Shown here: positions 34,630 through 62,164 of the stretch, piece by piece
Layout of the letters: each line of letters starts with the position of its first letter
How positions within the stretch are numbered: the stretch's first letter is position 1
Assembly (NCBI RefSeq): GCF_000378345.1
Contig: NZ_KB899547.1
Location: forward strand, 1 to 64,000
DNA: 64,000 bases
Direction: 5' to 3'
Source: Hirschia maritima DSM 19733
GTDB lineage: Bacteria; Pseudomonadota; Alphaproteobacteria; Caulobacterales; Hyphomonadaceae
The notes under the pieces: model-generated
The model's database searches: none
What the model was told of the DNA's origin: nothing
What the model saw: only the letters and a program-made list of their open reading frames with translations
Program-made: the position numbers and the translations under genes

Positions 34630-34714
34630 GCCTCTGTGGCGGAATTGGTAGACGCGTTGGATTCAAAATCCAATTTCTTCGGAAGTGTCCGTTCGAGTCG
34701 GACCAGAGGTACCA
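34630..34714 (+). tRNA. tRNA-Leu (CAA)
   Basis: The 85-base gene (with ACCA encoded) folds as a class II tRNA: acceptor GCCTCTG with CAGAGGT, discriminator A at 34711 and CCA at 34712-34714; anticodon stem TTGGA/TCCAA around the loop TTCAAAA, giving anticodon CAA at 34664-34666; a long variable arm; and T-arm with GTTCGAGTC. Leucine identity is supported by the long variable arm and A73. Confidence 0.95.
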
Positions 34715-59870: not shown

Positions 59871-59900
59871 AGCCCGCTAGAGAAATTTGGCGGGCTTTTT
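59871..59900 (+). terminator. Intrinsic terminator of lysK
   Basis: AGCCCGC pairs with GCGGGCT around 12 bases, followed by TTTT. It overlaps the stop of the convergent S24 gene at 59899 by two bases. Confidence 0.88.
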
Positions 59901-60519
59901 ACTGACTAGCCCACAAAATACGGGCGATCCATTCAATGTCGTTGGCGGCAAATTCGCGGGGCGGGTAGTCTGGATTAGCGGAGATTAATTCTACGCGGCT
60001 GGCAGACATGTGCCCCAGAAGTTTGGCGAGTATTTCACCTGACTTTGTTTTAGCAACCACGCGGTCGCCGCGGCGTACATCCATGCCGGGAGCAACGATA
60101 ATGCGGTCACCTTCACGAAACACCGGCAACATGGAATCGCCCGAAATTTCCAGCGCATAGACAGTTTCATCGCCCATATCGGGGAAGTGGATATCATCCC
60201 AACTTGCGCCGACGGGAAAACCAGCATCATCAAAAAAACCGCCATCACCCGCTTGCGCCAAGCCAATTAGGGGGATAGTGCGCCCCTGACGCCCTTGGGC
60301 GAGGTCCGCAAACTCTTCCCAACCAGCGCCCACGGCGGCCAAAGCTTTGGAGAGACTTTCTGTGGAGGGCCAGCGCGGTTTGCTGCCATCAGCACTCGTG
60401 CGTTTGGATTTGTTAAAGGCGGTGGGGTCTAATCCAGCCGACTTTGCCAAGGCCGATACAGACAATCCATGACGCGCCGCCAGCGCATCAATACCATTCC
60501 AGATATCGCTATGTCTCAT
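59899..60519 (-). CDS. HTH repressor with S24/LexA-like peptidase domain
   Basis: 206 residues. The first 65 residues form an HTH (LAARHGLSVSALAKSAGLDPTAFNKSK). The second part has the S24 fold: YALEISGDSMLPVFREGDRIIVAP with the nucleophile S (GDSM) and RRGDRVVAKTKSGEILAKLL with the Lys (VAKTK region). It is similar to phage CI-like and chromosomal XRE-S24 regulators. Region is visibly more G+C rich than neighbours. No prophage genes are near; the targets are unknown. Confidence 0.88.
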   Translation of the reverse strand: MRHSDIWNGIDALAARHGLSVSALAKSAGLDPTAFNKSKRTSADGSKPRWPSTESLSKALAAVGAGWEEFADLAQGRQGRTIPLIGLAQAGDGGFFDDAGFPVGASWDDIHFPDMGDETVYALEISGDSMLPVFREGDRIIVAPGMDVRRGDRVVAKTKSGEILAKLLGHMSASRVELISANPDYPPREFAANDIEWIARILWASQ

Positions 60520-60616
60520 GTGTTAAATGTCCTGTAATCGCGAGATGTGAGGACTATATACTAAACGAAAAGGAAAATAAACCTATATCATTTGAGGGCC
60601 GTTTGTTTTTTCTTCC

Positions 60617-60727
60617 TGTCATGCCCGACGCGAAGCGTCAGGGCATCGATCTCGAATTTTTCCAATGCTAGCAAGCGGTGCAATTTCGGGAGTTGGATCC
60701 CCTGACACGGGCGTGTCGGGGATGACA
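60617..60727. repeat. Bipartite palindromic intergenic repeat
   Basis: Outer arms TGTCATGCCC (60617) and GGGGATGACA (to 60727) pair as an inverted repeat. Inside, ATGCCC-GACGC/GCGTC-A-GGGCAT (60621-60646) and ATCCCC-T-GACACG/CGTGTC-GGGGAT (60697-60723) are each near perfect. This is the TGTCATxCCC...GGGxATGACA type common as dispersed repeats in alphaproteobacterial genomes. It could be a MITE-like remnant. Confidence 0.7.
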
Positions 60728-60805
60728 AAAGTGCATGTGTTTTAACCCAACACCAAAACCTCCGCCACCGATTGTCGATGCGAGAGTATGCATAAATGGG
60801 CTGCA

Positions 60806-61017
60806 AGGCGTTGCCATTAACAGCGATAAGGATAGCTGGATCGCTCCAGCAGTATAAGTAGCTGCCTCTGGCAACGCCTCACCTGATATTTTGTCCGCAG
60901 TGAAGACCTGTCTTACAGAGGCTCCATGAACCTCAGCCAGGGAGGCGAACCTCCTCTGGTTCCCTTTCTGGTACAGCGCCCAAAAGCTCTTTCCGGTCTA
61001 CCAAAGCTAAAGACCGG
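60806..61017. ncRNA. Structured intergenic element, unassigned
   Basis: Four good hairpins in 212 bases: AGGCGTTGCC (60806-60815) with GGCAACGCCT (60870-60879), which encloses GCTGGA/TCCAGC (60835-60850, TCGC loop); CCAGGGAGG-CGAA-CCTCC-TCTGG (60937-60959); and CCGGTCT...AGACCGG (60993-61017). It does not match tmRNA, RNase P, 6S or SRP signatures that I know. It may be an unknown RNA or decayed mobile DNA. Confidence 0.35.
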
Positions 61018-61189
61018 CGAGTCCCTTCAGGATATCAGTCCTCTCATCAGAAATGCCAAGTCGGTCGCGCATTTTCCGCCCACACAATGCGATGAGAAGA
61101 TGGGATCAGTATGGGGAGGATTGTGAGGGAGGGGGATTAAAAAGGGTTTATCCCGAAATATGAGGGAGCTTGCGCGGAAAATATTTCTT

Positions 61190-61221
61190 GAATGACTATT
61201 TCTCGCCAGAAGCAGTCATTC
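61190..61221. repeat. 8-bp inverted repeat
   Basis: GAATGACT and AGTCATTC are perfect complements 16 bases apart, upstream of the MerR-type promoter. Role unknown. Confidence 0.5.
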
Positions 61222-61327
61222 TTCGTCTCTTCGGCGAACAACTGATTTGAGCCCAAAGTAACAAATGCTGCGTTTCTTATGAATGCTTGGTTATTCTAGA
61301 AATTTTCTATTCAGCACAAAGAGGTCC

Positions 61328-61358
61328 TTGACCCTGACGTTAGTGTCAATGCTCTAAG
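61328..61358 (+). promoter_or_regulatory. MerR-type promoter/operator of the SDR gene
   Basis: TTGACC (61328-61333) and TCTAAG (61353-61358) are separated by 19 bp, the long spacer used by MerR-activated promoters. The spacer carries a dyad from TTGAC at 61328 to GTCAA at 61349, 18 of 22 positions symmetrical. The MerR gene is the second gene downstream, so it probably binds here. Confidence 0.65.
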
Positions 61359-61399
61359 AGAGTCTCCAATCAAAGATGGAAGATTGGAGACACATCATC

Positions 61400-62164
61400 A
61401 TGACCTATTGCGATACATGGCAAGGGAAGGTTGCAATCGTTACCGGGGGTAGCTCTGGAATCGGGTTGGCGACAACACGCGAACTTGTTGCGAGTGGTGC
61501 AAATGTACTTATTACGGGGCGCAGAGCGGACAAGCTGGCCCAAGTCGCAGCATCCGACGACAAAATTAAAACACTACAGATCGACAGCGCCGATGTAACC
61601 AGCGGACAGCAAATCGTTGAAGCTGCGATGTCGCGTTGGGGGCATATTGATTTGATTGTAAATAATTCAGGCGCAGGCCAGCTATTGCCTGTGGGAGAAT
61701 ACGATGCAGAAGTCATTGCAAAAATCTCTGCGGTCAACATCGTCGCTCCGTCACAACTTGTGAAGGCGGCTTACTCCGCGTTGAAGGAGAGCAAGGGTGC
61801 AATCGTAAACATTGGCACAGCGGTATCCCGCAATGCCGCGCCGTTGTTGGCACACTATGGGGCGACCAAAGCGGCCCTAGAGCATCTGACCAAATCTTGG
61901 GCCGTAGAATTGGCAAAGGATGGTATTCGCGTGAATGCTATTGCGCCCGGCCCAGTAAAGACCGGTGCTTTAACCGGATTCATGGGGTTGCCGCAAGAAA
62001 TGGCCCAACAGGTCGAAGCACAGGAAGCGGCACAAGTGCCATTGGGTCGCCGGGGCGTGACATCTGATATTGTGCCTTGGATTTTACGGTTTGGAAGCAC
62101 CGAAAACGAATGGCTCACGGGCCAAGTTCTGACAGTTGATGGTGGTTGGTCCTTGCGATCTTGA
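61400..62164 (+). CDS. SDR family oxidoreductase
   Basis: 254 residues from ATG 61400 (GGAG ten bases before). The NADP site is VAIVTGGSSGIGLATTRELVASGANVLITGRRADK, the catalytic Tyr/Lys YGATKAALEHL, with NNSGAG before and VNAIAPGPVKTGAL after, all classical SDR. Substrate unknown. It is controlled by a MerR-type promoter and followed by the merR gene after 94 bp; the pair is more G+C rich than the rest and may be acquired. Confidence 0.92.
   Translation: MTYCDTWQGKVAIVTGGSSGIGLATTRELVASGANVLITGRRADKLAQVAASDDKIKTLQIDSADVTSGQQIVEAAMSRWGHIDLIVNNSGAGQLLPVGEYDAEVIAKISAVNIVAPSQLVKAAYSALKESKGAIVNIGTAVSRNAAPLLAHYGATKAALEHLTKSWAVELAKDGIRVNAIAPGPVKTGALTGFMGLPQEMAQQVEAQEAAQVPLGRRGVTSDIVPWILRFGSTENEWLTGQVLTVDGGWSLRS

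Follow-up and report, generated by a model that had tools for sequence, protein, structure and literature searches.

The 64,000-nucleotide stretch of Hirschia maritima DSM 19733 analysed here (contig NZ_KB899547.1, positions 1 to 64,000; hereafter the window) contains, in a gap between two genes, a unit of about 400 bp that probably encodes a structured noncoding RNA. The gap is bounded on the left by an S24 regulator gene on the minus strand (59899-60519) and on the right by an SDR gene on the plus strand, identified by Pfam and starting at about 61400, with the SDR/MerR pair on this side. Three separate elements lie in between: a palindrome (60619-60727), the ~400-bp unit (60745-61146) and an 8-bp inverted repeat (61190-61221). 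An initial annotation had described a palindrome clustered with four strong stems plus an 8-bp inverted repeat in a G+C-richer, geneless gap, and this description is confirmed. G+C content is 51.4% in 60617-61221 and 52.7% in the unit, compared with 45.2% in the whole window, and the four stop-to-stop frames of the gap give no Pfam match at E<=1. A minus-strand frame (60668-60997) that at first looked protein-like was dropped on the same Pfam result; a hammerhead-like string, CUGAUGAG, was rejected by eye, and a permissive Rfam scan of 60520-61400 found no hammerhead.

The unit is read on the minus strand as an upstream block, a -10-like CATACT, a branched RNA of ~330 nt and a terminator-like hairpin. 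Its parts were delimited by comparison among members and with two models: R1, a covariance model built on an alignment (A3) of five divergent relatives with 60-71% identity, from which the window type was excluded, and R2, built on the block and 5' domain of twelve sequences from G001, a sister species in the same genus, and G021, a genome from another genus of the family. The promoter-like block, GGGATAAACCCTTTTTAATCCCC (family consensus GGATATCTCAAAACTTATCCCC), occupies 61132-61154, where R2 matches 61019-61146 with 32.0 bits, and member comparison places CATACT at 61108-61113. In the 5' domain (61039-61102), defined by member comparison and the R1 alignment, an outer stem formed by 61091-61102 and 61039-61048 encloses the conserved GGGCGG / GCGCGACCG stretch. 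The branched centre is closed by a helix of CUGAUAU (61032-61038) and AUAUCAG (60883-60889), placed from the R1 alignment and the sequence, and is followed by a long terminal hairpin with an internal loop (60802-60883), seen in the consensus fold and the R1 alignment. The 3' terminator-like hairpin (60760-60786) was matched by eye to that of the copy at C3:383876 (L003), which has a stability of -9.3 kcal/mol and carries six T in the next 10 positions; in the window it precedes the T-rich stretch GTTTTGGTGT (RNA strand, 60746-60759), read from the sequence, and the automatic terminator search picked another hairpin here. The earlier suggestion that the stems at 60806-61017 form an unknown RNA is well supported in substance, with the correction that the RNA is longer, lies on the minus strand and runs from about 61100 down to 60745.

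The unit belongs to a repeated family. Three further window-type copies are found in the same genome (G000), with 94-96% identity over 362-390 bp and unrelated flanks: C1:404043-404431 (95%), C3:383876-384265 (94%) and C1:773330-773691 (96%). The stem region is neither single-copy nor unconserved; 60750-61140 is itself repeated at these three places. Together with the member at C3:102676 and an incomplete one at C1:260515, the genome has six members; a weak match at C3:100998 (24 bits with R3, a model retrained on 37 sequences) has the block with no recognisable RNA and was not counted. A 431-bp query matched the own genome alone, of 61 genomes searched. Another copy used as query matched five of the 398 genomes of the order, among them G001 with two short matches to the unit's two ends; blastn matches in G025, G250 and G395 resemble coding sequence and were dropped. 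The DNA of G001 itself revealed divergent relatives, and using these as queries brought up further ones; G001 has 12 in all, comprising eleven distinct R1 places and one at C1:575 kb. The genome-wide R1 search missed the four window-type copies, although the same model matches them when their DNA is supplied. Opposite-strand R1 rows inside units were excluded from all member counts.

The fold is kept across these divergent sequences. The A3 consensus has 96 pairs on the RNA strand, arranged as a 5' stem, a helix closing the branched centre, arms and the long terminal hairpin. Two-sided changes occur in 35 of the 96 pairs (32 by another counting rule), compared with a mean of 17.0 in shuffled alignments, none of 500 of which reached this number, and with 2-10 in slid controls. 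In A3 the share of paired cells is 92.9%, a value that is favoured because the structure was derived from the same sequences. Against column shuffles the consensus fold has a z of -16.1 for the RNA strand, compared with -7.9 for the opposite one, and in five further member sets (30 shuffles each) the promoter strand again has the better value: -5.2/-4.9 (set A, a narrow difference), -7.6/-4.6, -9.9/-8.6, -7.1/-4.7 and -4.6/-1.1 for RNA/opposite strand. R1 gives a single match at E<=1 in the 64 kb, namely the window copy (60797-61113, minus strand, 33.2 bits, E 6.2e-9), and at best 1.1 bits on the opposite strand of the same stretch. In this match the 5' stem, closing helix and long hairpin are aligned and the centre is skipped; the closing helix itself differs, being CUGAUAU/AUAUCAG in the window and GAUGG/CCAUC in R1. 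Among the four own copies (370 columns, 212 of them paired), variation affects 20 unpaired and 10 paired columns, and in 9 of the latter pairing survives, in every case through G-U. On the opposite strand these G-U pairs would be A-C; the strand bias fits G-U pairing. Single-sequence folding of the 396 nt gives -139 kcal/mol on the plus and -149 kcal/mol on the minus strand (z -2.95 and -2.91), with one of 100 shuffles equally good on either strand.

The ends of the unit were compared in 18 loci. The block GGATATCTCAAAACTTATCCCC stands at a near-constant distance from CATACT or CATATT, being weaker in L050 and L056. We know of no sigma-factor or regulator box that fits ACTTATCCCC. Across many genera the block is present in 36 members, most of them found by models that include the block itself. 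Within the three genomes of the genus it occurs 15 times at up to 3 mismatches, with no occurrence in reversed controls: 10 in RNA units, 4 in copies of a repeated open reading frame (ORF) in G002 and 1 elsewhere. These four dispersed repeats of G002 (L072, L075, L078 and L080) have the same block followed by an ORF (MRSQAPDIYAPKRDFWRSF...) that contains palindromic repeats, with no RNA; CATAAT lies 7 bases ahead of an in-frame ATG, an earlier in-frame ATG overlaps CATAAT, and the part of this ORF that was scanned has no Pfam match. At the 3' end, L052, L054, L025 and L060 have three T in the ten positions after the hairpin, and the automatic test settled on a different hairpin in L051, L053, L055 and L012 (the window). 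In the copy at C1:773330 (L010, 3279-3333) an unrelated hairpin, CGTCAGGCGCTAGCGCCGTGACG, with a T-rich tail of six T replaces the usual one, and the G021 member ends in a similar hairpin, CCGTCAGGCGC.

How far does the family extend? R1 reaches two of the three genomes of the genus, three of 105 in the family and two of 398 in the order, where fewer candidates were scored per genome and G021 was missed. In G021, the third of the family genomes, R1 gives 27-29 bits on the long hairpin and 3.3 bits on the 5' part, with block and 5' loop in place by eye. R2 at E<=0.001 finds 25 of the 398 genomes of the order, including G000, G001 and G021, and at E<=0.05 it finds 64, of which about 20 are expected by chance and one is G002 at its ORF block. 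At most nine R2 candidates were scored per genome, with 8-9 matches as the largest number, so copy numbers are lower bounds. In the class, R3 at E<=0.01 finds 12 of 385 genomes. Six of these have 2-9 matches, namely the own genome and G417, G728, G528, G631 and G716 (two families outside the order), and six have single matches at E 0.003-0.009, near the four expected by chance. R1 matches seven of 16 cross-genus loci on the promoter strand, which supports the RNA itself in part of them: L134 in another genus (31.4 bits over 320 nt), L090 (27.8 over 112 nt), the single place covered by both L094 and L135 (18.2 over 328 nt) and, more weakly, L088 (15.8 bits), L149 (14.2) and L093 (11.1). A single Pandoraea match in a scan of named genomes was taken by eye as chance. 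The plasmids searched contain no match for the unit of the window or those of G284, G014, G238 and one genus outside the order, the phages searched none for the window or G284 units, and viral contigs none for exact core patterns; two promoter-pattern matches in viral contigs look like AT-rich coding sequence, although R3 gives them 18-22 bits.

We consider it probable, from sequence comparison, that 60745-61146 is an independent minus-strand gene for a structured noncoding RNA of ~330 nt, belonging to a new multicopy family. A functional noncoding RNA is suggested because the fold is kept as the sequence drifts, the strand bias fits G-U pairing, and the ends resemble a promoter and a terminator. 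The family, apparently not described before, is found as scattered copies across many genomes within a single alphaproteobacterial branch. Transcription would start from the promoter-like block and end at the last hairpin, and the product would act as a folded RNA, as the persistence of the fold during sequence drift indicates. The presence of near-identical copies at unrelated places suggests that the gene spreads as DNA; the unit would then move with its promoter included, as a semi-mobile RNA gene. The role of the RNA is the least certain point. Binding of a protein in trans seems likelier to us than control of adjacent genes, given that the neighbours are not recurrent and that sequence conservation in the RNA is concentrated in a single loop region (GGGCGG..GCGACCG).

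Several observations weigh against this interpretation. Folding of the opposite strand is also far more stable than in shuffled sequences (z -7.9), as would be the case for hairpin DNA. The expected 3' hairpin with at least 5 T in the next 10 positions is found by the automatic test in just 10 of 18 members, and the member at G000:C3:102676 (L046), in the same genome as the window, lacks the normal -10 spacing. Because R2 and R3 include the block, some of their weaker matches may share the block alone, as G002 does. Furthermore, R1 finds nothing at nine of the 16 cross-genus loci (L124, L126, L127, L142 and L154-L158), and two of the seven matched loci are one place. Finally, just four of 15 copy pairs outside the genus (from G014, G284, G096 and G086) share the unit alone.

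The copying pattern bears on the alternative that the unit is a non-autonomous DNA transposon, similar to miniature inverted-repeat transposable elements (MITEs), whose hairpins act as DNA for a transposase supplied in trans while the RNA is incidental. Its copies are dispersed, geneless and near-identical in several genomes, and strong hairpins form on both strands, all of which such an element would explain. The three own-genome comparisons with the window copy stop near the unit limits, and the four unit-only pairs (L120/L122, L122/L124, L145/L147 and L149/L151) are shared from the block start (-10 to +2) to +490-520. The remaining pairs have further flanking sequence in common, on one side or on both, which consists in part of dispersed palindromes, and one pair stops at a contig end; in the G284 copies the shared part starts 53-119 bp ahead of the block. 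However, the longest exact match between the ends of the four own copies is 5-6 nt (random mean 5.0), so no terminal inverted repeat above chance is present, and no target-site duplication is apparent in the three own copies compared, whose longest shared flank is 4 nt with the exact unit ends uncertain. In addition, each of the six sets favours the RNA strand, the fold being conserved on one strand, stem changes pass through G-U, and a promoter-like block is present. Such a transposon is therefore an unlikely explanation, if one to be taken seriously. A bacterial mobile RNA gene would be a promoter-to-terminator unit whose structured RNA aids its own spread, e.g. by recruiting an unlinked transposase or recombinase, and which is multicopy in one alphaproteobacterial branch with its sequence rebuilt and its fold kept. 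This bolder proposal we regard as speculative and rather doubtful. Omega RNA, HEARO and bridge RNA are marked by an adjacent nuclease or transposase gene; here none was found among nine Pfam-scanned neighbours, and no neighbour recurs among 130 ORFs of 40 loci, in searches that did not extend to partners elsewhere in the genome.

Another alternative is that the unit is a leader, trailer or terminator element that acts in cis on adjacent genes. Units sit between genes, and two sites have been kept by descent, one where G000 and G001 have the unit next to the same gene, which we take to be polA, and the other in the related species G014 and G005. At the latter site the unit is 90% identical and the flanks 88-92%, while the 259/210 bp immediately ahead of the unit show no alignment; the G014 member is closer to its orthologue (0.89) than to its paralogues (0.81-0.84). 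However, unit orientation relative to the neighbours varies, and 130 neighbouring ORFs of 40 loci (the two longest per side, within short flanks) gave just four cross matches, one of them at an orthologous place, which makes a cis element very improbable. The initial annotation had also raised an integration hot spot, with the stems as leftovers of insertions, and this finds weak support. In the sister species the two left-hand genes, the first presumably encoding lysyl-tRNA synthetase, stand in the same order (84% and 82% nucleotide identity), similarity ends at about 60587, right of S24, and the next 1.5 kb contain neither an RNA unit nor an SDR/MerR pair; moreover, two other members adjoin a CBASS-like pair and a TIR-AAA gene. 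As unit copies adjoin unrelated genes elsewhere, nothing singles out the window site, the other neighbours are diverse with no integrase among the nine scanned, and the conserved fold would need a separate explanation; we give the hot spot hardly any credence.

Returning to an RNA gene family as the preferred reading, comparison with known RNAs yields no equivalent. With Rfam 15, no unit reaches any gathering threshold, whether in the window scan or in permissive scans of the stem region (60520-61400), 16 + 6 member loci and 20 cross-genus loci, in which the sole match above threshold is a thiamine pyrophosphate (TPP) riboswitch outside the unit. In the literature, among titles and the starts of abstracts, nothing was recognised as this family; supplements of Caulobacter RNA maps were not covered and may contain members. 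The suhB RNA (RF00519) of alphaproteobacteria is described as having several copies per genome, each with a putative promoter and terminator, no fixed neighbours and little conserved structure beyond a short 5' helix and the terminator (PMC1273637). The window unit is alike in multicopy habit, promoter/terminator and neighbours, but differs in its ~96 pairs and the absence of an Rfam match at threshold. The CIR repeats of Caulobacter are multicopy, intergenic and folded, ~110 bp long, with a conserved GANTC (PMC2229807). The present family is likewise multicopy, intergenic, folded and alphaproteobacterial, but it is longer (362-390 to about 500 bp), and GANTC is absent from 28 of its 36 members; one occurs in the window copy. 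These two are nearest in habit, not in form. Long, highly folded RNAs, some of them multicopy or linked to mobile elements, also include HEARO, GOLLD, ROOL and OLE, from which the family differs in having weak sub-threshold Rfam matches at most and no recurrent neighbouring gene. A large, strongly folded multicopy RNA gene without an Rfam match points to an unrecognised RNA-protein complex or a mobile RNA gene, and with the covariance models and the common promoter block, its expression, protein partner and mobility can be tested directly in any culturable member.

The two remaining elements of the gap lie outside the unit, and neither is assigned to a strand. The 8-bp inverted repeat stands upstream of the promoter-like block, with arms gaatgact/agtcattc at 61190-61197/61214-61221, as read from the sequence. 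The palindrome at 60619-60727 adjoins the unit and is a dispersed palindromic repeat; a genome search, which the initial annotation had proposed for 60617-60727, returned partial matches of 75-84% identity at three places (G000:C1:772959, C5:122895 and C1:406313). The window by itself does not show it as repeated, because each part occurs just once there (0.00 expected for the left part and 0.33 for the right core). Dispersed palindromes also directly adjoin many unit copies in G284, G096 and G066 (L115-L124, L141-L144), as in the window, and both simply being intergenic is a possible cause. Elsewhere in the window, the sole Rfam match at threshold is a tRNA gene at 34630-34711.

The defence-like neighbours of two other members can be specified further. 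In L046 (111-1395; G000:C3, about 101.3-102.6 kb), a pair resembling a cyclic-oligonucleotide-based antiphage signalling system (CBASS) adjoins the unit next to the polA-like gene, and consists of an oligonucleotide cyclase (PDLC00803, E 2.7e-77) and a membrane effector (PDLC00664, E 4.9e-67). In L049 (1864-3288; G001), a protein with TIR and AAA_31 (ParA-like) domains adjoins another member.
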